From Chamaelirium japonicum (lineage: Eukaryota; Streptophyta; Magnoliopsida; Liliales; Melanthiaceae), in contig OX393555.1 of the NCBI GenBank assembly GCA_947650365.1, positions 84,077,995 to 84,141,994 of the forward strand: a stretch of DNA of 64,000 bases, given 5' to 3'. The notes beneath the pieces were generated by a model, which had not been told where the DNA came from, made no database searches, and saw only the letters and a program-made list of their open reading frames with translations. Positions 851-33,321 of this stretch are shown here, one piece after another. Position numbers and translations under genes: made by a program. Every line of letters starts with the position of its first letter. Positions within the stretch are counted from its first letter, which is position 1.

Positions 851-1450
851 GTACGAATGAATTAGAATAGATTGTACGAATGAATTAGAATGGATCGCAC
901 GAATGAATTAGAATGGATCGTACGAAGGAATTAGAATGGATCGTACGAATGAATTAGAATGGATCGTACGAATGAATTAGAATAGATCGGACGAATGAAA
1001 TAGAATGGATCGTACGAAGGAATTAGAATGGATCGTATGAATGAATTAGAATGGATATATTCGTGCAAATGAATTAGAATGGATCGTATGAATGTATTAG
1101 AATGGATCGTATGAGTGAATTAGAATGGATCGTACAAATGAATTAAAATGGATCGTATGAATGAATTAGAATGGATACATTCATTGCGAATGAATTAGAA
1201 TTGATCGTACGAATGAATTAGAATGGATCGTGCGAATGAATTAGAATGGATCGTACGAATGAATTAGAATGGATCGTACGAATGAACTAGAATCGATACA
1301 TTCGTGCGAATTAATTAGAATGGATCGTACGAATAAATTAGAATGGATCGTACGAATGAATAAATTAGAATGGATCTTGGGAATGAATTAGAATGGATCG
1401 TACGAATGAATTAGAATGAATTTGCACAAATGAATTAGAATGGATACATT
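851..1450 (+). repeat. Forward block with cassette D
   Basis: Cassette D near 1050-1200. It ends in irregular monomers: a GAATGAATAAATTAG fused unit near 1347 and a GATCTTGGG spacer near 1375. Same content as 8687-9262. Confidence 0.93.
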
Positions 1451-2192
1451 TGTACGATCCATTCTAACTCATTCATACAATCCATTCTATTTCATTTGTA
1501 CGATCCATTCTTACTCATTCGTATGATCCATTCTAATTCATTCGCACGAATGTATCCATTCTAATTCATTCATACAATCCATTCTAATTCATTCCGTACG
1601 ATCCATTCTAATTCATTAGCATGAATGTAACCATTCTAATTCATTCATTTGATCCATTCTAATTCATTCGTACGATCCATTCTAATTCATTCGTCCGATC
1701 CATTCTAATTCATTCGCACGTATGTATCCATTCTAATTCATTCGTACGATTCATTCGTACGATCCATTCTAATTCATTCGTACGATCCATTCTTACTCAT
1801 TCGTATGATCCATTCTAATTCATTCATACGATCCATTCTAATTCAATCGTACAATCGATTCTAATTCATTCGCACTATCCATTCTAATTCATTCGTACGA
1901 TCCATTCTAATTCATTCGTATGATCCATTCTAATTTATTCGTTCAAATATATCCATTCTAATTCATTCGTACGATCCATTCTAATTCATTCGCACGATCT
2001 ATTCTAATTCATTCGCACGAATGTATCCATTCTAATTCATTTGCACGATCAATTCTAATTCATTCCTATGATCTATTCTAATTCATTCGTACGATCCATT
2101 CAAATTCATTCTAATTCATTCGTACGATCCATTTTATGATCCATTCTAATTCATTCGTATATTCCATTCTAATTCATTAGCACGATCCATGC
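1451..2192 (-). repeat. Reverse block with cassette B
   Basis: Cassette B at 1615-1730, then a TTCAAATATATCC marker near 1943 shared with 4650 and 5130. It ends in a GCTAATG junction (J10). Confidence 0.92.
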
Positions 2193-2225
2193 TAATGAAT
2201 TAGAATGGATCGTACGATCCAATCT
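2180..2225. repeat. Junction type J10: single inverted monomer
   Basis: One forward monomer (about 2193-2213) sits inside a reverse array, flanked by GATCCATGCTAATG and TGGATCGTACGATCCAATC. A second copy is at 27,770-27,815. The reverse complement is at about 23,625-23,680, where one reverse monomer sits inside a forward array between GATTGGATCGTACGATCCA and TTAGCATGAATCGTGC. Confidence 0.9.
2193..2213 (+). repeat. Single forward monomer
   Basis: One monomer inverted inside a reverse array; see junction type J10. Confidence 0.88.
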
Positions 2226-3343
2226 AATTCATTCATACGATCCATTCTTACTCATTCGTATGATCCATTCTAATTCAATCGTACGATCCATTCTAATTCA
2301 TTCGTACGATCCATTCTAATTCCTTCGTACGATCCATTCTAATTCATTCGTACGATCCATTCTAATTCATTCGTATGATCTATTCTAATTCCTTCGTACG
2401 ATCCATTCTAATTCATTCGTACGATCCATTCTAATTCATTCGCGCAATCTATTCTAATTCAATTGTACGATCCATTCTAATTCATTCGTACGATCCATTC
2501 TAATTCATTCATACAATCCATTCTAATTTATTCGCACGAATGTATCCATTCTAATTCATTCGTACGATCCATTCTAATTCATTCGCACAATCTATTCTAA
2601 TTCATTCATACGATCCATTCTAATTCATTCGCACGAATGTATCCATTCTAATTCATTCATACGATCCATTCTACTTCATTCGTACTATCAATTCTAATTC
2701 ACTCACACGATCCATTCTAATTCATTCATAAGATCCATTCTAATTCATTTGCACGAATATATCCATTCTAATTCATTCGTACGATCCATTCTAATTCCTT
2801 CGTACGATCCATTCTAATTCCTTCGTACGATCCATTCTAATTCCTTCGTACGATCCATTCTATTTCATTCGTATGATCCATTCTAATTCCTTCGTACGAT
2901 CCATTCTAATTCCTTCGTATCTATTCTAATTCACTCATACGATCCATTCTAATTCATTCGTACGAACCATTCTAATTCATTCATACAATCCATTCTAATT
3001 CATTCGCACGAATGTATCCATTCTAATTCATTCGTACGATCAGTTCTAATTCATTCACAAAATCTATTCTAATTCATTCATACGATCCATTCTAATTCAT
3101 TCACACGAATGTATCCATTCTAATTCATTCATACGGTCCATTCTAATTCATTCGTACGATCCATTCTAATTCACTCATACGATCCATTCTAATACATTCA
3201 TATGATCCATTCTAATTCAATTGCACGAATATATCCATTCTAATTCATTCGTACGATCCATTCTAATTCCTTCGTACGATCCATTCTAATTCATTCGTAC
3301 GATCCATTCTAATTCATTCGTAGGATCCATTCTAATTCATTCG
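2214..3343 (-). repeat. Reverse block with cassette D twice
   Basis: Two cassette D copies (2690-2830, 3165-3280) with runs of CCTTCG monomers, and a truncated CCTTCGTATCTATTC monomer near 2910. A broadly similar array lies at 27,804-28,822. Confidence 0.92.
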
Positions 3344-4052
3344 TACGAATGGATTAGAATGAATTAGAATGGATCGTACGAATGAATTAAAATGGATAGT
3401 ATGAGTGAATTAGAATGGATACGAAGGAATTAGAATGGATCGTACGAAGGAATTAGAATGGATCATACGAATGAAATAGAATGGATCGTACGAAGGAATT
3501 AGAATGGATCATACGAAGGAATTAGAATGGATCGTACGAAGGAATTAGAATGGATCGTACGAATGAATTAGAATGGATATATTCGTGCAAATGAATTAGA
3601 ATGGATCGTATGAATGAATTAGAATGGATCATATGAGTGAATTAGAACGGATAGTACCAATAAGGTAGAATGGATCGTATGAATGAATTAGAATGGATGC
3701 ATTCGTGCGAATGAATTAGAATGGATTGTATGAATGAATTAGAATAGATTTTGTGAATGAATTAGAATGGATCGTATGAATGAATTAGAATGGATACATT
3801 CGTGCGAATGAATTAGAATGGATTGTATGAATGAATTAGAATGGATCGTACGAATGAACAAGAATGGATTCATTCGTGCGAATGAATTAGAATGGATCGT
3901 ACGAATGAATTAGAATGGATCGTACGAATTAATTAGAATGGATCGTACGAATGAATTAGAATAGATTGCGCGAATGAATTAGAATGGATCGTGCGAATGA
4001 AATAGAATGGATACAAATGAATTAGAATGGATCATACGAATGAATTAGAATG
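3344..4052 (+). repeat. Forward block
   Basis: Opens with GAAGG-rich monomers, then the TATATTCGTGCAAATG long monomer and the GAACGGATAGTAC marker. Shares its right part with 16,970-17,396. Confidence 0.92.
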
Positions 4053-4190
4053 ACAATCCATTCTTACTCATTCGTATGATCCATTCTAATTTATTCGCAC
4101 GAATGTATCCATTCTAATTCATTCGTACGTCTAATTCATTCGTACGGTCCATTCTAATTCATTCGCACAATCCATTCTATTTCATTCGTA
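3575..4190. repeat. Direct duplication of a forward-reverse junction segment, copy 1
   Basis: Matches 16993-17560 in order: the TATATTCGTGCAAATG 28-mer, GAACGGATAGTAC, a GAAGTAG or GAGGTAG-like monomer, the forward-to-reverse switch at GAATGAC followed by ATCCATTCTTACTC, then the odd truncation CGTACGTCTAATTC. Copy 1 is about three monomers longer. Confidence 0.8.
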
Positions 4191-4580
4191 CGATCCATTC
4201 TAATTCATTCGTACGATCCATTCTAATTCATTCGTACGATCCATTCTAATTCATTCGCACGAATGTATCCATTCTAGTTCATTCGTACGATCCATTCTAA
4301 TTCATTCGTACGATCCAATCTAATTCATTCGCACGATCCATTCTAATTCATTCGTAAGATCCATTCTAATTCATTCGCACGAATGTATCCATTCTAATTC
4401 ATTCGTACATACGATCCATTCTAATTCATTCGCACGAATGTATCCATTCTAATTCATTTGTATAATCTATTCTATTTCATTCGTACGATCCATTCTTACT
4501 CATTCGTACGATCCATTCTAATTCATTCGCACGAATGTATCCATTCTAATTCATTCGTACGATCCATTCTAATTCATTCG

Positions 4581-5060
4581 CACTATCCATTCTAATTCAT
4601 TCGTACGATCCATTCTAATTCATTCATATGATCCATTCTAATTTATTCGTTCAAATATATCCATTCTAATTCATTCGTACGATCCATTCTAATTCATTCG
4701 CACGATCCATTCTAATTCATTCCCACGAATGTATCCATTCTAATTCATTTGCACGATCCATTCTAATTCATTCCTATGATCTATTCTAATTCATTCGTAT
4801 GATCCATTCTAATTCATTCGCTCGAATGTATCTATTCTAATTCATTCGTACGATCCATTCTAATTCGTTCGTACGATCCATTCTAATTCGTTCGTACGAT
4901 CCATTCTAATTCATTCGTATGATCCATTCTAATTCATTCCTACGATCTATTCAAATTCATTCGCTCGAATATATCCATTCTAATTCATTCGTTCGATCCA
5001 TTCTTATTCATTCGCACGATCCATTCTAATTCATTCGTACGATCCATTCTAATTCATTCG
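4581..5060 (-). repeat. Tandem segmental duplication within reverse array, copy 1
   Basis: A segment of about 480 bp starting at the CACTATCC variant is followed directly by a second copy. Shared rare variants are CACTATCC, TTCAAATATATCC, CCTATGATC versus CTTATGATC, GCTCGAATGTATC, a run of AATTCGTTCG monomers and TTCAAATTCATTCGCTCG. This shows tandem growth by blocks of about 20 monomers. Confidence 0.9.
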
Positions 5061-5563
5061 CACTATCCATTCTAATTCATTCGTACGATCCATTCTAATT
5101 GATTCATATGATCCATTCTAATTTATTCGTTCAAATATATCCATTCTAATTCATTCGTACGATCCATTCTAATTCATTCGCACGATCCATTCTAATTCAC
5201 TCGCACGAATGTATCCATTCTAATTCATTTGCACGATCTATTCTAATTCATTCTTATGATCTATTCTAATTCATTCGTATGATCCATTCTAATTCATTCG
5301 CTCGAATGTATCCATTCTAATTCATTCATACGATCCATTCTAATTCGTTCATGTGATCCATTCTAATTCGTTCGTACGATCCATTCTAATTCGTTCGTAC
5401 GATCCATTCTAATTCATTCGTATGATCCATTCTAATTCATTCCTACGATCTATTCAAATTCATTCGCTCGAATATATCCATTCTAATTCATTCGTTCGAT
5501 CCATTCTAATTCATTCGCACGATCCATTCTAATTCATTCGTATAATCCATTCTAATCCATTCG
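5061..5563 (-). repeat. Tandem segmental duplication within reverse array, copy 2
   Basis: Second copy of the segment at 4581. The offset is 480 at its start and 503 at the GCTCGAATATATCC marker (4961 versus 5464), so this copy gained one 23-bp monomer, a GTTCATGTGATCC variant near 5346. Confidence 0.88.
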
Positions 5564-6072
5564 TACGATCCAGTCTAATTCATTCGTACGATCCATTCTA
5601 ATTCATTCGTACGATCCATTCTAATTCATTCGCACGAATGTATCCATTCTAGTTCATTCGTACGATCCATTCTAATTCATTCGTACGATCCATTCTAATT
5701 CATTCGCACGATCCATTCTAATTCATTCGTACGATCCATTCTAATTCATTCATACGATCCATTCTAATTCATTCATACAATCCATTCTAATTCATTCGTA
5801 CGATCCATTCTAATTCACTCATACGATCCCTTCTAATACATTCATACGATCCATTCTAATTAATTTGCACAAATATATCCATTCTAATTCATTCGTACGA
5901 TCCATTCTAATTCCTTCATACGATCCATTCTAATTCATTCGTACGATCTATTCTAATTCATTCGTACGATCCATTCTAATTCATTCGTACGATCCATTCT
6001 AATTCCTTTGTACGATCCATTCTAATTCATTTGTACGATTCATTCTAATTCATTCATACAATCTATTCTAAT

Positions 6073-6110
6073 TCATTCGTACGAATGGATACATTCGTGT
6101 GAATGAATTA
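6073..6110. repeat. Junction type J8, forward example
   Basis: Reverse-to-forward switch with core CATTCGTACGAATGGATAC, followed by ATTCGTGTGAATG. The same junction lies near 22446, 28823 and 32076. Its reverse complement, core GTATCCATTCGTACGAATG, makes the switches near 851, 8687 and 24401, with matching flanks (CACACGAATG on one side, GAATAGATTGTACG on the other). Confidence 0.92.
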
Positions 6111-6305
6111 GAATGGATCGTACGAATGAGTAAGAATGGATCGTACGAATGAAATAGAATGGATTGCACGAATGAATTAGAATGGATCGTACGAATGAAT
6201 TAGAATGGATCGTGTGAAAGAATTAGAATGGATTGTATGAATGAATTAGAATGGATCGTACGAATGAATTAGAATGTATCATACGAAGGAATTAGAATGG
6301 ATCGT
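6081..6305 (+). repeat. Forward block with cassette A
   Basis: Begins at junction J8 and ends at inverted J7, so it is a whole inverted counterpart of the 625-850 reverse block. Confidence 0.92.
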
Positions 6306-7570
6306 TCGCATTCGTACGATCCATTCTAATTCCTTCGTACGATCCATTCTAAATCATTCGTACGATCCATTCTAATTCATTCACGCAATCTATTCTAATT
6401 CATTCGTACGATCCATTCTAATTCTTTCGTACGATCCATTCTAATTCATTCATACAATCCATTCTAATTTATTCGCACGAATGTATCCATTCTAATTCAT
6501 TCGTACAATCTATTCTAATTGATTCGCACAATCTATTCTAATTCATTCATATGATCCATTCTAATTCATTCGCACGAATGTATCCATTCTAGTTCATTCG
6601 TATGGTCCATTCTAATTCATTCGTAAGATCCATTCTAATTCATTCATACGATCTATTCTAATTCATTCATACAATCCATTCTAAATCTTTCACACGATCC
6701 ATTACAATTCATTCGTAAGATCCATTCTAATTCATTCGTACGATCCATTCTAATTCATTCGTACGATCCATTCTAGTTCATTCGCACAAATGTATCCATT
6801 CTAATTCATTCATACGATTCATTCTTACTCATTCGTATGATCCATTCAAATTCATTCGTACGATCCATTCTAATCCATTCGTACGATCCATTCTAATTCA
6901 TTCGCATGAATGTAACCATTCTAATTCATTCATTTGATCCATTCTAATTCATTCGTACGATCTATTCTAATTCATTTGTCCGATCCATTCTAATTCATTC
7001 GCATGAATGTATCCATTCTAATTCATTCATACGATCCATTCTAATTCATTTGTACGGTCCATTCTAATTCATTCGCACAATCCATTCTAATTCATTCGTA
7101 CGATCCATTCTAATTCATTCTAATTCTTTCACATGATCCATTCTAATCCATTCTAATCCATTCTAATTCTTTCACACGATCCATTCTAATTCATTCGTAC
7201 GTTCCATTCTAATTCATTAGCACGATCCATGCTAATTCGTTCGTTCGATCAATTCTAATTCATTAGCACGATCCATTCTAATTCATTCGTACGATCCATT
7301 CTAATTCATTCGTACGATCCATTCTAATTCATTCGTAAGATCCATTCTAATTCATTCGTACGATCCATTCTAATTCATTCGCACGAATGTATCCATTCTA
7401 GTTCATTCGTACGATCCATTCTAATTCATTCGTACGATCCATTCTAATTCATTCGCACGATCCATTCTAATTCATTTGTACGATCAATTCTAATTCATTC
7501 GCACGAATGTATCCATTCTAATTCATTCATACGATCTATTCTAATTCATTCGTACGATCTATTCTACTTC
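6306..7570 (-). repeat. Reverse block with cassette B
   Basis: Cassette B at 6850-7010. At 7137-7168 the 10-bp piece CCATTCTAAT repeats three times without spacers. A GCTAATTCGTTCGTTCG piece of inverted cassette C lies near 7230. Confidence 0.92.
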
Positions 7571-8460
7571 ATACGAATGAATTAGAATGGATCGTACGAA
7601 TGGATTAGAATTGATCGTACGAATGGATTAGAATGGATACATTCGAGCGAATGAATTAGAATGGATCGTACGAATGAATTAGAATGGATCGTACGAATGG
7701 ATTAGAATGGATCCTACGAATGGATTAGAATGGATACCTTTGTGCATATGAATTAGAATGGATCGTACGAATTAATTAGAATGGATCATATTAATGAATT
7801 AGAATGGATCGTACGAATGAATTAGAATGGATACATTCGTGCGCATGAATTAGAATGGATCGTGCGAATCAATTAGACTGGATCGTGCAAATGAATAAGA
7901 ATAGATCATACGAATGAGTTAGAATGGATCGTACGAAGGAATTAGAATGGATCATACGAATGAAATAGAATGGATCGTACGAAGGAAGTAGAATGGATCG
8001 TCCGAAGGAATTAGAATGGATCGTACGAAGGAATTAGAATGGATCGTACGAATGAATTAGAATGGAAATATTCGTGCAAATGAATTTGAATGGATCGTAT
8101 GATTGAATTAGAATGGATCGTATGAGTGAATTAGAACGGATAGTACGAATGAAGTAGAATGGATCGTATGAATGAATTAGAATGGATACATTCGTGCGAA
8201 TGAATTAGAATGGATCGTCTAAATGAATTAGAATAGATTGTGCGAATGAATTAGAATGGATCGTTCGAATGAATTAGAATGGATACATTCGTGCGAATAA
8301 ATTAGAATGGATTGTATGAATGAATTAGAATGGATCGTACGAATGAATTAGAATGGATCGTACGAATGAATTAGAATAGATTGTGCGAATGAATTAGAAT
8401 GGATCGTACGAATGAATTAGAATGGATCGTACGAAGGAATTAGAATGGATCGTACGAATG
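7571..8460 (+). repeat. Forward block
   Basis: Starts with GAATGGATTAG monomers and an ATTCGAGCG long monomer (cassette B tail), then GGATACCTTTGTGCAT and CATATTAATG as at the start of the large units. From 7837 it matches the window start. Confidence 0.93.
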
Positions 8461-8686
8461 CGTACGATCCATTCTAATTCCTTTGTACGATCCATTCTAA
8501 TTCATTCGTACGATCCATTCTAATTCATTCATACAATCCATTCTAATTCTTTCACATGATCCATTCTAATTCATTTGTACGATCCATTCTAATTCATTCG
8601 TGCAATCCATTCTATTTCATTCGTACGATCCATTCTTACTCATTCGTACGATCCATTCTAATTCATTCACACGAATGTATCCATTC
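8461..8686 (-). repeat. Reverse block with cassette A
   Basis: Near-identical to 625-850. Confidence 0.93.
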
Positions 8687-9262
8687 GTACGAATGAATTA
8701 GAATAGATTGTACGAATGAATTAGAATGGATCGTACGAATGAATTAGAATGGATCGTACGAAGGAATTAGAATGGATCGTACGAATGAATTAGAATGGAT
8801 CGTACGAATGAATTAGAATAGATCGGACGAATGAAATAGAATGGATCGTACGAAGGAATTAGAATGGATCGTACGAATGAATTAGAATAGATATATTCGT
8901 GCAAATGAATTAGAATGGATCGTATGAATGTATTAGAATGGATCGTATGAGTGAATTAGAATGGATCGTACAAATGAATTAAAATGGATCGTATGAATGA
9001 ATTAGAATGGATACATTCGTGCGAATGAATTAGAATTGATCGTACGAATGAATTAGAATGGATCATGCGAATGAATTAGAATGGATCGTACGAATGAATT
9101 AGAATGGATCGTACGAATGAACTAGAATCGATACATTCGTGCGAATAAATTAGAATGGATCGTACGAATGAATAAATTAGAATGGATCTTGGGAATGAAT
9201 TAGAATGGATCGTACGAATGAATTAGAATGAATTAGCACAAATGAATTAGAATGGATACATT
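8687..9262 (+). repeat. Forward block with cassette D
   Basis: Copy of 851-1450, one monomer shorter. Confidence 0.93.
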
Positions 9263-10961
9263 TGTACGATCCATTCTAATTCATTCATACAATCCATTCT
9301 ATTTCATTTGTACGATCCATTCTTACTCATTCGTATGATCCATTCTAATTCATTCGCACGAATGTATCCATTCTAATTCATTTATACAATCCATTCTAAT
9401 TCATTCCGTACGATCCATTCTAATTCATTAGCATGAATGTAACCATTCTAATTCATTCATTTGATCCATTCTAATTCATTCGTACGATCCATTCTAATTC
9501 ATTCGTCCGATCCATTCTAATTCATTCGCACGAATGTATCCATTCTAATTCATTCGTACGATCCATTCTAATTCATTCGTACGATCCATTATAATTCATT
9601 CGTACGATCCATTCTAATCCATTCGTACGATCCATTCTAATTCATTCGCACGAATGTATCCATTCTAATCCATTCGTATGATCCATTCTAATCCATTCGT
9701 ACGATCCATTCTAATTCATTCGCATGAATGTAACGATTCTAATTCATTCATTTGATCCATTCTAATTCATTCGTACAATCTATTCTAATTCATTCGTACG
9801 ATCCATTCTAATTCATTCGTACGATCCATTCTAATTCATTCGTCCGATCCAGTCTAATTCATTCGCACGAATGTATCCATTCTAATTCATTCGTACGATC
9901 CATTCTAATCCATTCTAATTCTTTCACAAAATCTATTCTAATTCATTCATACGATCCATTCTAATTCATTCACACGAATGTATCCATTCTAATTCATTCA
10001 TACGATCCATTCTATTCATTCGTACGATCCATTCTTACTCATTGGTACGATCCATTGTAATTCATTCGCACGATCCATTCTAATTCATTTGTACGTTCCA
10101 TTCTAATTCATTCGTACGATCCATTCTAATTCATTCGTACGATCCATTCTAATTCATACGATTCATTCTAATTAATTCTAATTCGTATGATCTATTCTAA
10201 TTCATTCGTATGATCCATTCTTATTCATTCGCACGATCCAGTCTAATGGATTCGCACGATCCATTCTAATTCATTCGCACGAATGTATCCATTCTAATTC
10301 ATTCGTACGATCCATTCTAATTCATTAATATGATCCTTTCTAATTCATTCGTACGATCCATTCTAATTCATATGCACAAAGGTATCCATTCTAATCCATT
10401 CGTAGGATCCATTCTAATCCATTCGTACGATCCATTCTAATTCATTCGCATGAATGTAACCATTCTAATTTATTCATTTGATCCATTCTAATTCATTCGT
10501 ACGATCCATTCTAATTCAATCGTCTGATCCATTCTAATTCAATCGCACGAATGTATCCATTCTAATTCATTCGTACGATCCATTCTAATTCTTTCATACG
10601 ATCCATTTTAATTCATTCATAAGATCCATTCTAATTCATTCGTACGATCCATTCTAATTCATTCGTACGATCCATTCTAATTCATTCGCACGAATGTATC
10701 CATTCTAGTTCATTCGTACGATCCATTCTAATTCATTCGTCCGATCCATTCTAATTCATTCGCACGAATGTATCCATTCTAATTCATTCGTACGATCCAT
10801 TCTAATTCATTCGTACGATCTATTCTAATTCATTCGTACGATCCATTCTTACTCATTCGTATGATCCATTCTAATTCATTCACACGAATGTATCCATTCT
10901 AATTCATTCATACAATCCATTCTAATTCATTCCGTACGATCCATTCTAATTCATTCGTACG
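9263..10961 (-). repeat. Reverse block with three cassette B copies
   Basis: Cassette B at 9425-9540, 9680-9870 and 10,390-10,560, spaced irregularly. Irregular joins ATACGATTCATTCTAATTAA near 10,155 and ATATGCACAAAGGTATCC near 10,370. Ends at the 46-bp palindrome. Confidence 0.92.
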
Positions 10962-10985
10962 ATCGTACGAATGAATTAGAATGGA
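10940..10985. repeat. Perfect 46-bp palindrome at reverse-to-forward switch
   Basis: The switch is centred on GATC inside CGTACGATCGTACG and both arms match perfectly for 23 bases. An identical type of junction, also 46 bp, lies at 31,511-31,556. The arms continue beyond with monomer-level similarity, so the foldback potential is much longer. Confidence 0.93.
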
Positions 10986-11432
10986 CCGTACAAATGAATT
11001 AGAATGGATCGTACGAATGAATTTGAATGGATCGTATGAAAGAATTAGAATGGATTGTATGAATGAATTAGAATAGATCGTATGAATGAATTAGAATGGA
11101 TTGTACGAATGAATTAGAATGGATCGTACGAATGAATTAGAATGGATACATTCGTGCGAATGAATTAGAATGGATACATTCGTGCGAAAGAATTAGAGTA
11201 GATCGTATGAATGAATTAGAATGGATCCTATGAATGAATTAAAATGGATCGTGCGAATGAATTAGAATGGATCGTACGAATGAATTAGAATGGATCGTGC
11301 TAATGAATTAGAATTGATCGAACGAATGAATTAGCATGGATCGTGCTAATGAATTAGAATGGATCGTGTGAAAGAATTAGAATGGATTGTGTGAAAGAAT
11401 TAGAATGGATTGTATGAATGAATTAGAATGAA
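10962..11432 (+). repeat. Forward block with cassette C
   Basis: From the palindrome to a J1 junction. The cassette C part (11,220-11,432) has two GTGTGAAAG monomers in a row. Confidence 0.92.
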
Positions 11433-11910: not shown

Positions 11911-11930
11911 GTACGAATGAATTAGAATGG
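11895..11930. repeat. Perfect 36-bp palindrome at seamless switch
   Basis: Centred on CGTACG at 11,910-11,915. One mismatch outside the perfect core (CGTAC against CGTGC), after which pairing resumes, gives a near-perfect inverted repeat of more than 60 bp. Confidence 0.92.
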
Positions 11931-17560: not shown

Positions 17561-17566
17561 TCCATA
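17397..17566 (-). repeat. Reverse block
   Basis: Opens with a TTACTC monomer and the truncated CGTACGTCTAATTC; ends abruptly at CCATAAAG. Confidence 0.92.
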
Positions 17567-23350: not shown

Positions 23351-23635
23351 AATGGATTGTATGAATTAATTAGAATGGATCGTAGGAATGAATTAGAATG
23401 GATCGTACAAATGAATTAGAATAGATTGCGCGAATGAATTAGAACGGATCGTACGAATGAATTAGAATGGATCGTACGAATGAATTAGAATGGATCGTAC
23501 GAATGAATTAGAATGGATCGTACGAAGAAATTAGAATGGATCGTACGAATGAATTAGAATGGATCGGACGATTGAATTAGAATGGATCATACGAATGAGT
23601 AAGAATGGATCGTATGAATGAATTAGATTGGATCG
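22446..23635 (+). repeat. Forward block with cassettes A and D
   Basis: Cassette D twice (22,735 and 23,105); GAACTGATC marker near 22,924; runs of GAAGG monomers. Confidence 0.92.
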
Positions 23636-23660
23636 TACGATCCATTCTAATTTATTAGCA
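23636..23660 (-). repeat. Single reverse monomer
   Basis: Inverted counterpart of J10 (2193, 27,783). Confidence 0.9.
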
Positions 23661-24200
23661 TGAATCGTGCTAATGAATTAGAATGGAATATACGAATGAA
23701 TTAGAATGGATCGTACAAATGAATTAGAATGAATTAGAATGGATCGTACGAATGAATTAGAATAGATCATAGGAATGAATTAGAATGGATCGTGCAAATG
23801 AATTAGAATGGATACATTCGTGCGAATGAATTAGAATGGATCGTGCGAATGAATTAGAATGGATCATACGAATGAATTAGAATGGATATATTTGAACGAA
23901 TAAATTAGAATGGATCATACGAATGAATTAGAATGGATCGTACGAATGAATTAGAATGGATAGTGCGAATGAATTAGAATCGATCGTACGAATGAATTAG
24001 AATGGATCATAAGAATGAGTAAGAATGGATCGTACGAATGAATTAGAATGGATCGTACGAATGAATTAGAATGGATCGTACGAATAAATTAGAATGGATA
24101 CATTCGTCCGAATGAATTAGAATGGATCATACGAATGAGTAAGAATGGATCGTACGAATGAAATAGAATAGATTGTACGAATGAATTAGAATGGATCCTA
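23661..24200 (+). repeat. Forward block
   Basis: Starts with GTGCTAATG and a GGAATATACG monomer; ends with cassette A variants broken at GGATCCTAGTACG. Confidence 0.92.
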
Positions 24201-24400
24201 GTACGATCCATTCTAATTCATTCGTACGATCCATTCTAATTCATTCATACAATCCATTCTAATTCTTTCACACGATCCATTCTAATTCATTCGTACGATC
24301 CATTCTAATTCATTCGTGCAATCCATTCTATTTCATTCGTACGATCCATTCTTACTCATTCGTACGATCCATTCTAATTCATTCACACGAATGTATCCAT
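24201..24400 (-). repeat. Reverse block with cassette A
   Basis: Third relative of the 625-850 block, sharing TGCAATCC and the inverted J8 end. Confidence 0.92.
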
Positions 24401-25725
24401 TCGTACGAATGAATTAGAATAGGTTGTACGAATGAATTAGAATGGATCGTACGAAGGAATTAGAATGGATCGTACGAATGAATTAGAATGGATCGCACGA
24501 ATGAATTAGAATGGATATATTCGTGCAAATGAATTAGAATGGATCGTATGAATGTATTAGAATGGATCGTTTGAGCGAATTAGAATGGATCGTACGAATG
24601 ATTTAGAATGGATTGTATGAATGAATTAGAATGGATCGTACGAAAGAATTAGAATGGATCATACGAATTAATTAGAATGGATCATACAAATGAATTAGAA
24701 TGGATCGTACGAATGAATTAGAATGGATACATTCGTGCGAATGAATTAGAATGGATTGTGCGAATGAATAAGAACATATCGTGCGAATGAATTAGAATGG
24801 ATCGTACGAATGAATTAGAATGGATCGTGCGAATGAATTAGAATGTACGAATGAATTAGAATGGATACATTTGTGCGAATGAATTAGAATGGATCGTACG
24901 AATGAATTAGAATGGATCGTATGAATGAATTAGAATGGATCGTACGAATGAACTAGAATGGATCGTGCGAATGAATTAGAATGGATCGTACGAATGAATT
25001 AGAATGGATCGTGTGAAAGAATTAGAATGGATCGTACGAATGAATTAGAATGGATCGTGCGAATGAATTAGAAAGGATCATACGAATGAATTAGATTAGA
25101 TACATTTGTGCGAATGAATTAGAATGAATCGTACGAATGAATTAGAATGGATCGTATGAATAATTTAGAATGGATCGTACGAATGAATTAGAATGGATCG
25201 TGCGAATGAATTAGAATGGATCGTACGAATGAATTAGAATAGATCGTACGAATGAACTAGAATGGATACATTCATGTGAATGAATTAGAATGGATCGTAC
25301 GAATGAATTAGAATGGATCTTACGAATGAATTAGAATGGATCGTACGAATGAATTAGAATGGATCGTACGAATGAATTAGAATGGATACATTCGTGCGAA
25401 TGAATTAGAATGGATCGGACGAATGAATTAGAATGGATCGTACGAATAAATTAGAATGGATCGTATGAATGAATTAGAATGGATCGTACGAATAAATTAG
25501 AATGGATACATTCGTCCGAATGAATTAGAATGGATCATACGAATGAGTAAGAATGGATCGTACATATGAAATAGAATAGATTGTACGAATGAATTAGAAT
25601 GGATCCTACGAATGAATTAGAATGGATCGTGTGAAAGAATTAGAATGGATTGTATGAATGAATTAGAATGGATCGTATGAATGAATTCGAATGGATCGTG
25701 CGAATGAATTCGAATGGATCGTACG
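24401..25725 (+). repeat. Forward block
   Basis: Cassette D at 24,505-24,610; a shortened GAATGTACGAATG monomer near 24,841; cassette A near 25,500-25,640; ends at inverted J1. Confidence 0.92.
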
Positions 25726-26585
25726 AATTCATTCTAATTCATTCATACAATCCATTCTAATTGTTTCACACGATCCATTCTAATTCATTCGTACGTTCCA
25801 TTCTAATTCATTAGCACGATCCATGCTAATTCACCCGTTCGATCAATTCTAATTCATTAGCACGATACATTCTAATTCATTTGTACGATCCATTCTAATT
25901 CATTCGCACGATCCATTCTAATTCATTCATAGGATCCATTCTAATTCATTCATACGATCTATTCTAATTCTTTTGCACGAATGTATTTATTCTAATTCAT
26001 TCGCACGAATGTATCCATTTTAATTCATTCGTACGATCCATTCTAATTCATTCGTACGATCCATTCTAATTCATTCGTATGATCAATTCTAATTCATTCG
26101 CACGAATGTATCCATTCTAATTCATTCGTACATACGATCCATTCTTATTCATCCGCACGAATGTATCCATTCTAATTCATTTGTATAATCCTTTCTATTT
26201 CATTCGTACGATCCATTCTTACTCATTCGTATGATCCATTCTAATTCATTCGCACGAATGTATCCATTCTAATTCAATCGTACGATCCATTCTAATTCAT
26301 TCGCACAATCTATTCTATTTCATTCATACGATCCATTCTTACTCATTCGTACGATCCATTCTAATTCCTTCGTACGATCCATTCTATTTCATTCGTATGA
26401 TCCATTCTAATTCCTTCGTACGATCCATTCTAATTCCTTCGTATCCATTCTAATTCACTAAAACGATCCATTCTAATTCATTCGTACGATCCATTCTAAT
26501 TCATTTGCACGAATATATCCAATCTAATTCATTCGCACGATCTATTCTAATTCATTCGCACGATCCATTCTAATTAATTCGTACG
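25726..26585 (-). repeat. Reverse block led by inverted cassette C
   Basis: Closely parallels 18,622 onward, then a CGTACATACGATCC irregular spacer near 26,135 as at 4406. Confidence 0.92.
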
Positions 26586-26647
26586 ATCGTGCTAGTGAAT
26601 TAGAATCGATCGTACGAATGAATTAGAATGGATACATTCGTGCGAAT
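26586..26647 (+). repeat. Short forward block
   Basis: Under three monomers, opening with GTGCTAGTG. Confidence 0.9.
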
Positions 26648-27409
26648 CCTTTCTATCTCATTCGTACGATCCATTCTAATTCATTCATACGATCCATTCT
26701 CACTCATTCGTACGATCCATTCTAATTCATTCATACGATCCATTCTAATTCATTCGTACAATCCATTCTAATTCTTTCACACAATCCATTCTAATTCATT
26801 CGTACGATCTATTCTAATTCATTCGTACGATCCATTCTAATTCTTTCACACGATTCATTCCAATTCATTCGTACGATCCATTCCAATTCATTCGTACGAT
26901 CCAATCTAATTCATTCATACGATCCATTCTAATTCATTCGTACGATCCATTCTAATTCCTTCGTACGATCAATTCTAATTCCTTCCATTCTAATTCATTC
27001 GTACGATCCATTCTAATTCATTCGCACGATCCATTCTAATTCATTCATACAATCCATTCTAATTTATTCGTATGATCCATTCTAATTCATTCGTACGATC
27101 CATTCTAATTCCTTCGTACGATCCATTCTATTTCCTTTGTACGATCCATTCTAATTCCTTCGTACGATCCATTCTAATTCATTCATACGATCCAATCTAA
27201 TTCATTCCTACGATCCATCTTAATTCATTCGCACGATCCATTCTAATTCATTCGCACGATCTATTCTAATTCATTCGTACGATCCATTCTAATTCCTTCG
27301 TACGATCCATTCTAATTCATTCGCACGATCCATTCTAATTCATTCATACGATCCAATCTAATTCATTCATACGATCCATTCTAATTCATTCGTATGATCC
27401 ATTCTAATT
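26648..27409 (-). repeat. Reverse block
   Basis: Mostly consensus and CCTTCG monomers and no 28-bp forms, unlike its neighbours; a spacer-less CCTTCCATTC join near 26,980. Confidence 0.91.
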
Positions 27410-27515
27410 AGAATGGATCGTGCGAATGAATTAGAATGGATCGTACGAATTAATTAGAATAGATTATGCGAATGAATTAGAATGGATCGTGCGAATGAAT
27501 TAGAATGGATCGTAC
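27410..27515 (+). repeat. Short forward block
   Basis: About four and a half monomers entered through CTAATTAGAATGG, an AT-centred palindrome. Confidence 0.91.
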
Positions 27516-27782
27516 GGTATGATCCATTCTAATTCATTCGCACGATCCATTCTAATTCATTCATACGATCCAATCTAATTCATTCATACGATCCATTCTT
27601 ACTCATTCGTATGATCCATTCTAATTCATTCGTACAATCCATTCCTATTCATTCGTACAATCCATTCTATTTCATTCGTACGATCGATTCTAATTCATTC
27701 GTACAATCCATTCTAATTCATTCGTACGATCCATTCTAATTCATTCGTTTATTCCATTCTAATTCATTAGCACGATCCATGC
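27516..27782 (-). repeat. Reverse block before J10
   Basis: Ends in the same CGTTTATTCC or CGTATATTCC and TTAGCACGATCCATG order as 2140-2192. Confidence 0.91.
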
Positions 27783-27803
27783 TAATGAATTAGAATGGAT
27801 CGT
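27783..27803 (+). repeat. Single forward monomer (J10 copy)
   Basis: Same sequence and flanks as 2193-2213. Confidence 0.9.
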
Positions 27804-28822
27804 ACGATCCAATCTAATTCGTATATTCCATTCTAATTCATTAGCACGATCCATTCTTACTCATTCGTATGATCCATTCTAATTCAATCGTACGATCCAT
27901 TCTAATTCATTCATACGATCCATTCTAATTCCTTCGTACGATCCATTCTAATTCATTCGTACGATCCATTCTAATTCCTTCGTACGATCCATTCTAATTC
28001 ATTTGTACGATCCATTCTAATTCATTCAAGCAATCTATTCTAATTCATTCGTACGATCCATTCTAATTCATTCGTACGATCCATTCTAATTCATTCATAC
28101 AATCCATTCTAATTTATTCGCACGAATGTATCCATTCTAATTCATTCGTACGATCCATTCTAATTCATTCGCACAATCTATTCTAATTATTTCATATGAT
28201 CCATTCTATTTCATTCGCATGAATGTATCCATTCTAATTCTTTCATACGATCCATTCTACTTCATTCGTACTATCCGTTCTAATTCACTCATACGATCCA
28301 TTCTAATTCATTCATACGATCCATTCTAATTCATTTGCACGAATATATCCATTCTAATTCATTCGTACGATCCATTCTAATTCCTTCGTACGATCCATTC
28401 TAATTCATTCGTACGATCCATTCTATTCCATTCTAATTCATTCGTACGATCAGTTCTAATTCATTCACAAAATCTATTCTAATTCATTCATACGATCCAT
28501 TCTAATTCATTCACACGAATGCATCCATTCTAATTCATTCATACGATCCATTCTAATTCATTCGTACGATCCATTCTAATTCACTCATACGATCCATTCT
28601 AATACATTCATACGATCCATTCTAATTCATTTGCACGAATATATCCATTCTAATTCATTCGTACGATCTATTCTAATTCCTCCGTACGATCCATTCTAAT
28701 TCATTCGTACGATCTATTCTAATTCATTCGTACGATCCATTCTAATTCCTTCGTACGATCCATTCTAATTCTTTCGTACGATCCATTCTAATTCATTCGT
28801 ACAATCTATTCTAATTCATTCA
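27804..28822 (-). repeat. Reverse block with cassette D twice
   Basis: Tracks 2214-3300 with differing monomer numbers (cassette D at 28,285 and 28,580), so the duplication includes J10; ends at J8. Confidence 0.92.
28285..28395 (-). repeat. Cassette D, reverse example
   Basis: Inverted order: CTAATTCACTCATACG, CATTCATACG, the 28-mer CATTTGCACGAATATATCC, consensus, then CCTTCGTACG monomers. Other reverse copies near 2690-2830, 3165-3280, 5815-5920, 22180-22290, 28580-28690, 33795-33910, 41145-41290, 52050-52200 and 59310-59440. Confidence 0.87.
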
Positions 28823-29139
28823 TACGAATGGATACATTCGTGTGAATGAATTAGAATGGATCGTACGAATGAGTAAGAATGGATCGTACGAATGAAATAG
28901 AATGGATTGCACGAATGAATTAGAATGGATCGTATGAATGAATTAGAATGGATCGTACGAATGAATTAGAATGGATCGTACGAATGAATTAGAATGGATA
29001 CATTCGTGCGAATGAATTAGAATGGATCATACGAATGAGTAAGAATGGATCGTACGAATGAAATAGAATGGATTGTATGAATGTATTAGAATGGATCATA
29101 CGAATGAATTAGAATAGATTGTATGAATGAATTGGAATG
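28823..29139 (+). repeat. Forward block with cassette A twice
   Basis: Cassette A starts near 28,850 and 29,025; the block ends inside a monomer (GGAATGTATCC). Confidence 0.92.
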
Positions 29140-29549
29140 TATCCATTCTAATTAATACGTACGATCCATTCTATTACATTCGTACCATCCATTCTAATTC
29201 ATTCATACGATCCATTCTAATTCATTCATACAATCCATTCTAATTCTTTCACACGATCCATTCTAATTCATTCGTACGATCCATTCTAATTAATTCGTAC
29301 AATCCATTCTATTTCATTCGTACGATCCATTCTTACTCATTCGTACGATCCATTCTAATTCAATCCATTCTAATTCTTTCACACGATCCATTCTAATTCG
29401 TTCATACGATCCATTCTAATTCATTCGTATGATCCATTCCAATTCCTTCATACGATCCATTCTATTTCATTCATACGATGCATTCTTACTCATTCGTATG
29501 ATCCATTCTAATTCATTTGCACAAATATATCCATTCTAATTCATTCGTA
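29140..29549 (-). repeat. Reverse block with cassette A
   Basis: Three TTACTC monomers near 29,330, 29,485 and earlier remnants; spacer-less AATTCAATCC join near 29,360. Confidence 0.91.
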
Positions 29550-31105
29550 AAAATGAAATAGAATAGATCGTACGAATGAATTAGAATGGATCATACGAAT
29601 GAATTAGAATGGATCGTATGAATGAATTAGAATGGATCGTACGAATGAATTAGAATGCTTCGAATGAATGATTTAGAATAGATTGTGCGAATGAATTAGA
29701 ATGGATCGTAAGAATTAATTAATGAATTAGAATGGATCGTACGAAGGAATAAGAATGGATTGTACGAATGAATTAGAATGGATCATACGAATGAATTAGA
29801 ATGGATACATTCGTGCGAATGAATTAGAATGGATCGTGCGAAAGAATTCGAATGGATCGTGCGAATGAATTAGAATGGATCATATGAATGAATTAGAATG
29901 GATCGTGCGAATGAATTCGAATGGATCGTGCGAATGAATTAGAATGGATTTTATGAATGAATTAGAATAGATCGTCTGAATGAATTAGAATGGATCGTAC
30001 GAATAAATTAGAATGGATACATTCGTGCGAATGAATTAGAATGGATCATAAGAATGAGTAAGAATGGATCGTACGAATGAAATAGAATGGATTGTACGAA
30101 TGAATTAGAATGGATCGTAAGAATGAATTAGAATGGATCATGTGAAAGAATTAGAATGGATTGTATGAATGAATTAGAATGGATCGTACGAATGAATTAG
30201 AATGGATACAATCGTGCGAATGAATTTGAATGCATCATACGAATGAGTAAGAATGGATCGTACGAATGAAATAGAATGGATTGTACGAATGAATTAGAAT
30301 GGATCGTGCGAATGAATTTGAATGGATCGTACGAATGAATTAGAATGGATCGTGCTAATGAATTGGAATTGATCGTACGAATGAAATAGAATGGATTGTA
30401 CGAATGATTTAGAATGGATCGTACGAATGAATTAGAATGGATCATACGAATGATTTAGAATGGATACATTCGTGCGAATGAATTAGAATGGATCATACGA
30501 ATGAGTAAGAATGGATCGTACGAATGAAATAGAATGGATTGTATGAATGAATTAGAATGGATACATTCGTGCGAATGAATTAGAATGGATCGTACCAATG
30601 AGTAAGAATGGATCGTACGAATGAAATAGAATGGATTGTGCGAATGAATTAGAATGGATCGTACGAATGAATTAGAATGGATCGTGTGAAAGAATTAGAA
30701 TGGATTGTATAAATGAATTAGAATAGATCGTATGAAAAAATTTGAATGGATCGTACGAATGAATTAAAATGGATCGTACGAATGAATTAGAATGGATCGT
30801 ACGAATGAATTAGAATGGATACATTCGTGCGAATGAATTAGAATGGATACATTCGTGCGAAAGAATTAGAATAGATCGTATGAATGAATTAGAATGGATC
30901 CTATGAATGAATTAGAATGGATCGTGCGAATGAATTAGAATGGATCGTACGAATGAATTAGAATGGATCGTGCTAATGAATTAGAATTGATCGAACGAAT
31001 GAATTAGCATGGATCATGCTAATGAATTAGAAAGGAACGTACGAATGAATTAGAATGGATCATGTGAAAGTATTAGAATGGATTGTATGAATGAATTAGA
31101 ATGAA
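29550..31105 (+). repeat. Forward block rich in cassette A
   Basis: Cassette A begins near 30,015, 30,210, 30,460 and 30,561, the densest run in the window; then cassette C to J1. The longest chance open frame (30,445 to 30,197, minus strand) lies here because of the GAGTAAG and GAAATAG variants. Confidence 0.92.
30561..30719 (+). repeat. Cassette A, forward example
   Basis: Fixed order of variants: 28-mer with ACATTCGTGC, a GAGTAAG monomer, a GAAATAG monomer, a TGTGCG or TGTACG spacer, a consensus monomer, a GTGTGAAAG monomer, then TGTATG. Other forward copies are near 28830-28960, 30010-30180, 36120-36260, 38100-38230 and 45478-45560. Reverse copies read CTTTCACACG, CATTCTATTTC, CATTCTTACTC, then GCACGAATGTATCC, for example at 34045-34190 and 19205-19280. 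The GAAATAG and GAGTAAG changes remove the TAA that the reverse strand otherwise carries in each monomer. Confidence 0.9.
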
Positions 31106-31533
31106 TTCGTACGATCCATTCGAATTCATTCGCACGATCCATTCTAATTCATTCATACGATCCATTATAATTCATTCATACAATCCATTCTAATTCTTTC
31201 ACACGATCCCTTCTAATTCATTCGTAGGATCCATTCTAATTCATTCGTACAATCTATTCTATTTCATTCGTACGATCCATTCTTACTCATTCGTATGATC
31301 CATTCTAATTCATTCGGACGAATGTGTCCATTCTAATTTATTCGTACGATCTATTCTAATTCATTCGTACGATCCATTCTAATTCATTCGTACGATCCAT
31401 TCTTACTCATTCGTATGATCCATTCTAATTCATTCGTACGATCCATTCTAATTCATTCGTACGATCCATTCTAATTCATTCGCACAATCTATTCTAATTC
31501 ATTCGTACGCTCCATTCTAATTCATTCGTACGA
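31106..31533 (-). repeat. Reverse block after J1
   Basis: Standard post-J1 order with GTAGGATCC and CGGACGAATG; ends at the 46-bp palindrome. Confidence 0.92.
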
Positions 31534-31556
31534 TCGTACGAATGAATTAGAATGGA
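31511..31556. repeat. Perfect 46-bp palindrome, second copy
   Basis: Same GATC-centred reverse-to-forward switch as at 10,940-10,985. The flanks differ, so it is either an old shared copy or the same rearrangement arising twice at a favoured site. Confidence 0.93.
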
Positions 31557-31763
31557 TCGTACGGAATGAATTAGAATGGATTGTATGAATGAATTAGAAT
31601 GGATACATTCGTACGAATGAATTAGAATGGATCATACGAATGAATTAGAATGGATCATACGAATGAGTAAGAATGGATCGTACGAATGAAATAGAATAGA
31701 TTGTACTAATGAATTAGAATGGATCCTACGAATGAATTAGAATGGATCGTGTGAAAGAATTAG
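31534..31763 (+). repeat. Forward block
   Basis: One inserted G (CGTACGGAATG) near 31,563; cassette A variants; ends at GAATTAGATCC. Confidence 0.92.
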
Positions 31764-32075
31764 ATCCATTCGTACAATCCATTCTATTTCATTTGTACGA
31801 TCCATTCTTACTCATTCGTATGATCCATTCTAATTCATTCGCATGAATGTATCCATTCTAATTCATTCGTACGATCCATTCTAATTCATTCGTACGATCC
31901 ATTCTAATTCCTTCATACAATCCATTCTAATTCTTTCACACGATCTATTCTAAGTCATTCGTACGATCCAGTCTAATTCATTCGTACGATCCATTCTAAT
32001 TCCTTCGTACAATCCATTCTAATTCATTCGTACGATCCAGTTTAATTCATTCGTACAATCTATTCTAATTCATTC
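31764..32075 (-). repeat. Reverse block with cassette A
   Basis: TATTTC and TTACTC monomers, then CCTTCG monomers; ends at J8. Confidence 0.92.
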
Positions 32076-33321
32076 GTACGAATGGATACATTCGTGTGAA
32101 TGAATTAGAATGGATCGTACGAATGAGTAAGAATGGATCGTACGAATGAAATAGAATGGATTGAACGAATGAATTAGAATGGATCGTACAAATGAATTAG
32201 AATGGATCGTGTGAAAGAATTAGAATGGATTGTATGAATGAATTAGAATGGATCGTACGAATGAATTAGAATGGATCGTACGAAGGAATTAGAATGGATC
32301 GTACGAATGAATTAGAATGGATCGTACGAATGAATTAGAATAGATCGTACGAATGAATTAGAAAGGATCGTACGAAGGAATTAGAATGGATCATACGAAT
32401 GAATTATAATGGATATATTCGTGCAAATGAATTAGAATGGATCGTATGAATGTATTAGAATGGATCGTATGAGTGAATTAGAATGGATCGTACGAATGAA
32501 TTAGAATGGATCGTATGAATGAATTAGAATGGATACACTCGTGTGAATGAATTAGAATGGATCGTATGAATGAATTAGAATAGATTTTGTGAATGAATTA
32601 GAACTGATCGTACGAATGAATTAGAATGGATACATTCGTGCGAATGAATTAGAATGGATTGTATGAATGAATTAGAATGGATCGTATAAATGAATTAGAA
32701 TGGATCATATGAGTGAATTAGAATGGATACGAAGGAATTAGAATGGATCGTACGAATGAATTAGAATGGATCGTACGAAGGAATTAGAATGGATCGTACG
32801 AATGAACTAGAATGGATCGTACAAATGAATTAGAATAGATCGTATGAATGAATTAGAATGGATCGTACGAAGGAATTAGAATGGATCGTACGAATGAATT
32901 AGTATGGATCGTACGAATGAACTAGAATGGATACATTCGTGCGAACGAATTAGAATGGATTGTACGAATGAATTAGAATGGTTCGTACGAATGAATTAGA
33001 ATGGATCTTACGAATGAATTAGAATGGATCGTACGAATGAATTAGAATGGATACATTCGTGCAAATGAATTAGAATGGATCGTACGAATAAATTAGAATG
33101 GATACATTCGTCCGAATGAATTAGAATGGATCATACGAATGAGTAAGAATGGATCGTACGAATGTATTAGAATAGATTGTACGAATGAATTAGAATGGAT
33201 TAGACGAATGAATTAGAATGGATCGTGTGAAAGAATTAGAATGGATTGTATGAATGAATTAGAATGGATCGTATGAATGAATTATAATGGATCGTGCGAA
33301 TGAATTCGAATGGATCGTACG
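32076..33321 (+). repeat. Forward block; large unit 1 match begins inside
   Basis: Left third resembles 22,446 onward; from about 32,410 it matches 43,074 onward. Ends at inverted J1. Confidence 0.92.

Follow-up and report, generated by a model that had tools for sequence, protein, structure and literature searches.

Strand switches in a 23-bp satellite of Chamaelirium japonicum look like old inversions multiplied mainly by direct block copying

The window, a 64-kb stretch of DNA (positions 1..64000), is entirely covered by a satellite that changes strand repeatedly, and many of its strand-switch junctions recur in both orientations. The pattern looks like the product of many old inversions that were later multiplied mainly by same-direction copying of blocks, and not by a special inverted-copying machinery.

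The satellite array and its strand switches

The repeat unit is a 23-bp monomer, TCGTACGAATGAATTAGAATGGA, accompanied by a 28-bp variant. The two-unit, two-strand model matches 93.8% of the bases over 84 kb of C7, where the satellite is uninterrupted. The 23-base satellite is very abundant and dispersed in the plant genome, an exact 58-mer being present 84445 and 85257 times on the two strands, and its monomer contains the palindrome TCGTACGA. A scan of the window returned no Rfam family at the gathering score, the monomer sequence strings had no match in the literature searched, and 401 bases around junction J1 found no match in a genome-wide similarity search that leaves out simple repeats and words of very high frequency.

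The strand HMM places 82 switches in the window and 104 over the 84 kb of C7, where they are spaced by about 0.8 kb and delimit same-strand runs of 24-4471 bp (median 543 bp). Switch density ranges from 1.23 to 1.40 per kb on three chromosomes (1.24, 1.40 and 1.23 for C7, C9 and C1, respectively). The assembly comprises 3253 contigs and is known here from assembled sequence alone, so that contigs might have been misjoined or flipped in a repeat unresolvable by assemblers. Such an artefact is very improbable, given that junctions recur exactly, J1 and J10 thousands of times and J7 on many contigs, that the switches are close enough to lie well inside one long read, and that their density is similar on the three chromosomes.

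Recurrence of junctions in both orientations

Seven junction types were described in the initial annotation as occurring directly and as reverse complements with matching flanks. All were found at the places given when their cores were searched in the window with two to three mismatches tolerated, and the 26 direct and 15 inverted cores are alignable by eye (direct plus inverted: J1 11+6, J3 2+1, J4 3+2, J6 2+1, J7 2+1, J8 4+3, J10 2+1). Every entry below comes from the core search; the first direct J1 core was also aligned by eye, all entries other than direct J1 were aligned, and the first J10 was supported by clustering as well.

11425..11454, +, J1 direct
19673..19702, +, J1 direct
31098..31127, +, J1 direct
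35531..35560, +, J1 direct
38834..38863, +, J1 direct
39434..39463, +, J1 direct
46371..46400, +, J1 direct
49610..49639, +, J1 direct
50233..50262, +, J1 direct
56911..56940, +, J1 direct
57511..57540, +, J1 direct
18603..18632, -, J1 inverted
25706..25735, -, J1 inverted
33302..33331, -, J1 inverted
36300..36329, -, J1 inverted
43965..43994, -, J1 inverted
47141..47170, -, J1 inverted
54280..54317, +, J3 direct (short inverted insert)
60784..60821, +, J3 direct
63209..63246, -, J3 inverted
14298..14331, +, J4 direct
36107..36140, +, J4 direct
46948..46981, +, J4 direct
36471..36504, -, J4 inverted
47312..47345, -, J4 inverted
15276..15310, +, J6 direct
16949..16983, +, J6 direct
21303..21337, -, J6 inverted
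611..638, +, J7 direct
8447..8474, +, J7 direct
6295..6322, -, J7 inverted
6070..6105, +, J8 direct
22436..22471, +, J8 direct
28813..28848, +, J8 direct
32067..32102, +, J8 direct
828..863, -, J8 inverted
8664..8699, -, J8 inverted
24380..24415, -, J8 inverted
2179..2224, +, J10 direct (two switches 24 bp apart)
27769..27814, +, J10 direct
23626..23671, -, J10 inverted

Extra reverse matches to J7 at 607 and 8443 are its near-palindromic core matching itself. J3, by eye a ~14-base inverted insert within a plus run, is not scored as a switch by the strand HMM.

At a score of at least 96 the 104 switches fall into 38 clusters, of which 20 are multi-copy and contain 86 of the junctions. Both orientations occur in 10 of these 20, a result that shifts with the threshold (11/19, 10/20, 8/19 and 9/20 at scores of at least 92, 96, 100 and 104); the range 92-104 was used, and scores of 70-80 merge nearly all junctions because every flank is satellite. 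The view that most recurrent junctions are bidirectional thus applies to about half of them. Exact cores are balanced between strands genome-wide, with 6703 forward and 6650 reverse copies of J1 (13,353 in total), 1435 and 1423 of J10 (2,858 in total), and 94 and 81 of J7, the last spread over many contigs. When C1, C7 and C9 are pooled, 15 of 24 multi-copy clusters (score at least 96) are present on more than one chromosome.

Flanking homology was followed by x-drop extension in pairs from 84 kb of C7, 20 kb of C9 and 34.8 kb of C1. Among opposite-orientation pairs it reaches at least 100 bp on both sides in 42 of 165 for J1, 74 of 140 for J8, 4 of 10 for J10, 3 of 18 for J4, 3 of 4 for J6, 2 of 5 for J3 and 7 of 7 for J7, whose near-palindromic core makes the labels in this test unreliable for all copies but the one at 6295. 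Random phase-matched C7 starts reach that length on one side in 16% of cases (n = 3000), corresponding to about 2.6% on both sides. Many opposite-orientation pairs are therefore homologous well past the core, as had been claimed, and flanks exceed the background on both sides, with J4 the weakest and J3, J6 and J10 represented by few pairs. In fixed 150-bp flank slices, one of the two sides frequently did not rise above background (J1 left 0.79-0.81 vs 0.81 random), and the extension replaced them because indels and short homology tracts break slices. The slices nevertheless show that many J1 copies have only one flank in common at length. Junction homology extends over at least 2 x 2500 bp in the same orientation (C9 tandem copies) and ends at 1169 bp in the opposite one (a C7-C1 pair).

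The tree of 26 J1 copies, limited to rows with at most two mismatches (a four-mismatch set of 63 rows, contaminated by non-junction sequence, was left out), requires five orientation changes (bootstrap 4-6), three of them forced by well-supported branches, and by eye the inverted C7 tips, taken by themselves, fall in about three places. The tree of 25 J8 copies requires seven changes, two forced, and includes one row, C1 1383582, whose branch is long and whose composition is unusual. Copies from C1, C7 and C9 stand together in both trees, and orientation there is defined contig by contig. Neither junctions nor HSPs can be counted as independent events. Orientation changed repeatedly, in agreement with the suggestion that copying went in both directions.

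Direct and inverted segmental copies

Self-comparison gave 524 direct and 478 inverted HSPs, the longest of 3212 and 1269 bp, and five monomer-shuffled controls gave 40-79 HSPs per orientation with longest values of 254-410 bp. Those that span a switch with at least 100 bp per side number 38 direct and 24 inverted. Together with the clusters and the flank extension, the self-comparison upholds the proposal that a few founders were copied repeatedly inside larger segments. On C7, copies of at least 1000 bp at 95% identity or more are 10 direct and none inverted, and copies of at least 500 bp at 97% or more are seven direct and none inverted. Copies of at least 300 bp are 15 direct and four inverted at 97% or more, and 31 and 23 at 96% or more; these inverted copies, and those between C9 and C7 given below, show that not all of them are old, an observation that counts against the explanation preferred below. 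Direct copies inside the window are only partial, with 93-98.8% identity, and include the following pairs.

1-1334 and 7837-9169 (span 1..9169), no strand: most similar long direct pair among those listed, 98.8%
34589-36601 and 45415-47442 (span 34589..47442), no strand: direct segmental copies, 2038 bp aligned, 95.3%, spacing ~10.8 kb

C9 carries a higher-order repeat, a multi-kb tandem unit at very high identity (period 9,486 bp, 99.46% identity over 10.2 kb, both strands within), with a direct match of 4.8 kb to C7 at 97.6%. All of the 14 longest C9-C7 matches are direct, and those of at least 300 bp at 96% or more are 24 direct and 16 inverted. Among the J1 and J10 marks listed for C1, blocks are repeated directly in 10 pairs and two triples, and inversely in one pair, self-symmetric and counted as direct too, and in no triple. 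Judged by sequence, mixed-strand blocks have been copied directly.

Such blocks might also have spread as extrachromosomal circles, excised, amplified by rolling circle and reinserted at homologous runs, or by break-induced copying. Runs of both strands occur everywhere, so circle-derived blocks could re-enter either way and yield inverted copies without inversion or mirrored arms. The tandem 9.5-kb unit of C9 with its relative on C7, the clusters shared between chromosomes and the mixed orientation of the C9-C7 matches would fit this route. Plants commonly contain circles of satellite origin (PMC2543021), and Tribolium freemani is reported to have circles that bear satellite arrays (PMC13081366). 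Nevertheless, re-entry is expected to be unbiased, yet the longest similar C7 copies and the longest C9-C7 matches are direct, and we consider the route unlikely. The longest match of C1 left-end blocks to the C7 right end is inverted in seven of seven blocks, a pattern more in keeping with telomere-oriented exchange than with random insertion. Such exchange is tempered by the balance of all C1-C7 matches (411 direct, 401 inverted; 26 and 34 at 500 bp or more).

Arms, stems and breakpoints

Template switching, by fold-back at a break or by an ODIRA-like switch between leading and lagging strands, would write the inverted copy and its switch in one step, later erosion hiding the mirrored arms. 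Mirrored arms rise above the null 99% at 0 of 84, 0 of 74 and 0 of 39 switches at 100, 200 and 400 bp (2, 0 and 0 above the null 95%), in a test of limited power, as a simulated fold-back mix kept them at 7% of junctions. Founder hairpin stems exceed the null 99% in one of 38 cases and show no excess length over those of random junctions (p = 0.50). The founder at 27516 has a perfect stem of 42 bp closed by a 9-nt loop. Inverted homologies on C7 are no more concentrated nearby than direct ones, and the long, highly similar inverted copies expected of template switching are absent in the size classes given above. What speaks for it are the microhomology and short palindromes at founders, the stem at 27516, the four inverted C7 copies of at least 300 bp at 97% or more, the simulated fractions given below, and the resemblance of the 28-bp unit, J3 (both by eye) and J10 to very short inverted patches of ~6, ~14 and ~24 bases. 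The reading of J10 as a hairpin templated from a common arm variant was rejected, that variant being frequent elsewhere in the array (46 occurrences). Fold-back as the main source was likewise rejected on the arm and stem tests; it is kept as a rival, an unlikely one, because the simulated power is low.

In simulations, two mixes of direct duplication and plain inversion gave 40% and 52% bidirectional clusters, compared with the 10 of 20 observed; a fold-back mix gave 46% and insertion of inverted copies 52%. Since direct duplication with inversion yields a similar fraction, both orientations do not imply inverted duplication. Unequal crossover alone produces no switches and is excluded as the sole cause, as the initial annotation had held. 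Its further conclusion that the pattern implies an inverted-duplication mechanism does not follow, since direct duplication with plain inversion suffices, mirrored arms were not found at the switches and the longest copies are direct; the intra-array inversion that it offered as an alternative is the part that survives.

Founder microhomology averages 2.1 bp (mean of cluster medians) vs 0.63 in 599 synthetic junctions (p = 1.7e-6), and 2.9 vs 1.15 in 999 synthetic junctions with a variant-tolerant profile (p = 3.4e-6). Much of the excess lies at the monomer palindrome, in a share that depends on the threshold: this dyad class comprises 10 of 38 clusters vs 39 of 999 synthetic junctions, and at rising thresholds 2/11 (p = 0.07), 2/17 (p = 0.15), 5/28 (p = 0.005), 10/38, 13/46 and 14/48; dyad junctions may be over-split. 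Pooled with C1 and C9 it amounts to 4/32 (p = 0.04), 11/50 and 14/55. Clusters without a C7 member give 0/9, 1/12 and 1/12, no excess, so that the dyad excess finds no independent replication. Plain inversions should leave reciprocal breakpoint pairs, and these show only a weak excess (12 matched vs 8.4 expected, p = 0.043; 7 vs 5.4 outside the dyad class, p = 0.24).

A model of inversion and block multiplication

We propose, with slightly less than even confidence, that a dispersed satellite has been shuffled by two separate processes, intra-array inversion and mainly direct multiplication of blocks. In the model: (i) inversions within the array would give rise to the strand switches, with part of the breakpoints, to judge from their position, at short palindromes within the 23-bp unit, above all TCGTACGA; (ii) multi-kb blocks already holding both strands have, as homology shows, been multiplied mainly directly, by tandem duplication and in higher-order repeats, and have passed from chromosome to chromosome with the switches as passengers; and (iii) later block inversions would flip some copies, so that founder junctions come to stand in both orientations. 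That the flipping step is plain inversion is inferred from the lack of fold-back traces at the switches and from the simulated sufficiency. Against the model, the dyad excess depends on clustering and is unreplicated in C7-free clusters, the reciprocal pairs are only weakly in excess, and the mirrored-arm test has limited power.

A bolder version, which we regard as somewhat unlikely, is self-inversion of the satellite. Through the palindrome, any two monomers form a pair of inverted repeats, and recombination or template switching at this site would continually flip segments. Strand polarity would thereby be lost and the array would come to use both strands equally, as in the 58-mer counts, a steady state dictated by the symmetry of the monomer itself. 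If the palindrome sets the inversion rate, satellite architecture could be predictable from monomer sequence.

Comparison with known systems

Satellite turnover is often modelled as one-directional unequal crossover. As the array shows, both strands may lie within a duplicated block, and every switch serves as a shared mark by which inversion and duplication can be counted separately; junctions in both orientations alone do not demonstrate an inverted-duplication mechanism.

In fold-back and ODIRA events of human and yeast, breakpoints carry short inverted sequence (PMC3907307), as may a share of those here, and the products are palindromic junctions or inverted duplications with a spacer (PMC3907307, PMC10766186), whereas the arm and stem tests detected no near-identical mirrored arms with a short spacer, within their limited power. 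The CUS-TR24 loci of Cuscuta europaea, another plant satellite, are shaped by segmental duplications and inversions (PMC8091179); they are interrupted by SSRs and LINEs, in contrast to the 84 kb of uninterrupted satellite found here. The macro-dyads of Tribolium madens TmSat1 and TmSat2 (2044 and 3486 detected) have a few conserved inversion sites, in thousands of copies intermingled between contigs (PMC13081366), and J1 and J10 are likewise inversion sites in very many copies. The Tribolium arrays mostly consist of two subarrays tending to symmetry, while here the runs are short, irregular and not mirror-symmetric, large symmetrical palindromic arms being absent from the arm test over 84 kb. 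Comparable, too, are the large human arrays with many internal inversions, more than 200 within hSat3 on chromosome 9 and betaSat on chromosome 1 and the acrocentrics (PMC10813616), which the present array resembles in its 104 switches and in their recurrence as homologous copies. It differs in a switch every ~0.8 kb, the human density being compared by description only, in its palindrome-bearing 23-bp unit, and in junctions, J1 and J10, with thousands of exact genomic copies. The array is a dense new example of the known strand-switching satellites represented by human HSat3, beta satellite and Tribolium.

Satellite composition and extent

A single satellite fills the entire 64-kb window, with runs of both strands, and two forms of the repeat are found:

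Both strands: satellite unit, 23 bp, TCGTACGAATGAATTAGAATGGA
Both strands: satellite variant unit, 28 bp, with CATTCGTGCGAATG

The 28-bp variant accounts for 16.5% of the bases over 84 kb (the window and 10 kb of neighbouring sequence on each side). The bases it adds make up an inverted repeat, CATTCG-TG-CGAATG, resembling a six-base inverted patch. In the unit profile, positions 1-6 present CpG decay, the second core C being T in 25% of units and the first CG being TG or CA in 12-13%, a pattern that fits the expectation under cytosine methylation. The 23-bp unit had no match in the literature searched with four sequence strings.

Within the 85.87-Mb contig of chromosome C7, the window spans 84.078-84.142 Mb; the assembly totals 1.52 Gb. 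At sampled points (1-kb samples and pattern hits) the satellite was seen from 83.08 to 84.37 Mb and was missing at 82.08 and 84.64 Mb. Genome-wide, an exact 58-mer is nearly equally frequent on the two strands (84445/85257). Junctions J1 and J10 have 13,353 and 2,858 copies in the genome. Scaling up the 84-kb densities of the 58-mer and of these two junctions gives a genome total of very roughly 75-250 Mb; the 4.9 Mb obtained from J7, a rare junction, is uninformative. Among the places listed, junction patterns are also located inside chromosomes, beyond the near-end sites, as on C1 near 10, 17-18 and 27-28 Mb and on C7 near 20-21 and 41-43 Mb. COX1 matched with equal top score at least 59 separate small contigs, mitochondrial sequence remaining in many pieces in the assembly. 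A COX1 segment of 448 residues scored 939 bits against chain 7jro_a (7jro is from mung bean), well clear of the runner-up at 689 bits, which points to a plant.

Strand-switch junctions in both orientations

For the recurrent strand-switch junctions J1, J3, J4, J6, J7, J8 and J10, all cores sit where the initial annotation had placed them and in the orientations assigned there, 26 direct and 15 inverted. A two-strand model placed 104 switches over the 84 kb, 82 of them inside the window. Clustering of their 120-bp contexts on both strands (score ≥96) produced 38 clusters, and the 20 with several members contain 86 of the 104 junctions. Both orientations were present in 10 of these 20, and in 11/19, 8/19 and 9/20 multi-copy clusters at scores ≥92, ≥100 and ≥104, respectively. 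Pooling the 84 kb of C7 with stretches of C9 (20 kb) and C1 (34.8 kb) raised the totals to 175 switches, 174 of them usable as junctions, in 50 clusters (score ≥96); of 24 multi-copy clusters, 12 held both orientations and 15 were on more than one chromosome.

Homology between opposite-orientation pairs extends past the core above background, strongly for J1, J8, J10 and J7 and modestly for J4 (3 of 18 pairs), while J6 and J3 rest on few pairs. The J1 and J8 trees require several orientation changes, at least three and at least two, respectively, on well-supported branches. The clusters are not all of a single orientation, the flanks are more similar than random monomers, and hence the both-orientation observation stands, with the "most" junction types originally claimed read as "about half".

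The two orientations had been taken to imply inverted duplication, by template switching or intra-array inversion, and not unequal crossover alone. In a simple forward simulation, read out as the percentage of multi-copy junctions with both orientations, direct duplication alone yielded zero switches, and direct duplication with plain inversion yielded 40-52%, near the observed half, which inverted-copy insertion (52%) and fold-back (46%) fitted equally well. Since several mixes fit, the pattern establishes that inversion of some kind occurred but cannot by itself demonstrate inverted duplication.

Direct and inverted copies

Compared with itself, the C7 sequence yields 524 matches in direct and 478 in inverted orientation, where five controls with shuffled monomers had 40-79 per orientation. 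Length and similarity differ between the two, though not absolutely: direct/inverted matches number 184/159 at ≥300 bp and ≥93%, 15/4 at ≥300 bp and ≥97%, 7/0 at ≥500 bp and ≥97%, and 10/0 at ≥1000 bp and ≥95%. Their origins overlap, and about five independent direct events are estimated among those listed. Homology flanking a junction extends to the 2 × 2500-bp limit between same-orientation copies (C9 tandem copies) and no further than 1169 bp between opposite-orientation ones.

A 9,486-bp higher-order repeat on C9 (C9:73884001-73904000) contains both strands, with 28 switches in 20 kb. Between its copies identity is 99.46% along 10.2 kb, and its direct match to C7 spans 4.8 kb at 97.6%. Among shorter C9-C7 matches (≥300 bp, ≥96%) both directions occur, 24 direct and 16 inverted. 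The repeat is close to the end of the 74.04-Mb contig. On C1, using as marks the first 100 listed J1 places and 28 J10 places below 2.83 Mb, direct blocks recur among the places listed as at least ten pairs and at least two triples, one displaced by 169.8 kb; the sole inverted pair is self-symmetric and counted as direct too. Shuffled marks gave means of 1.9 direct and 1.7 inverted pairs (maximum 7 and 6). Recent large-scale multiplication thus appears to have involved mainly mixed-strand blocks in direct orientation.

Among the places listed, C1:2490317-2502333 and C1:2660117-2672133 share four J1 marks at an identical 169,800-bp displacement, a large direct duplication within the satellite. 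A J7 minus/plus pair spaced by 2,480 bp (once 2,479) occurs in at least nine places on C5, C6, C7 and C9, among the first 100 of 175 places, as an inverted module common to four chromosomes. Between the C1 left end and the C7 right-end array the longest match is inverted in 7/7 blocks, which lie close together and so are not independent, and between the C9 and C7 right ends the longest matches are direct. These directions may reflect exchange preserving orientation to the telomere; C1-C7 matches taken all together are balanced.

Origin of the switches

Fold-back copying would leave mirrored arms. Arms above the null 99th percentile were present at 0/84 (100 bp), 0/74 (200 bp) and 0/39 (400 bp) switches, in a test that is not strong, the simulated fold-back mix having kept mirrored arms in just 7% of switches. 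Perfect stems near founders, the original junctions of each cluster, matched those of random joins in length (p = 0.50), except at window position 27516. The singleton switch there, whose perfect stem measures 42 bp and whose loop 9 nt, is the sole founder above the null 99% and a candidate recent fold-back event.

Founders have more microhomology than synthetic joins, the longer stretches being largely at palindromes of the unit, chiefly GGA-TCGTACGA-TCC and CAT-TCGTACGA-ATG, the two products expected from inverting a segment between two palindromic cores. Breakpoints at such palindromes (dyad class) occur in 10/38 clusters versus 39/999 synthetic joins, in 2/17 and 2/11 clusters at looser thresholds, and in 1/12 clusters lacking a C7 member. 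The link of founder breakpoints to unit palindromes is suggestive. Reciprocal breakpoint pairs are in weak overall excess (p = 0.043), with no excess outside the dyad class (p = 0.24).

Comparison with known systems

Many inversions are recorded in human HSat3 and beta satellite (PMC10813616), conserved inversion sites present in thousands of copies in Tribolium madens (PMC13081366), and segmental duplication with inversion in a Cuscuta satellite (PMC8091179). In contrast, human alpha-satellite higher-order units are reported to hold few internal inversions (PMC9859433). The array in the window is a new dense example, organized without large mirror symmetry.
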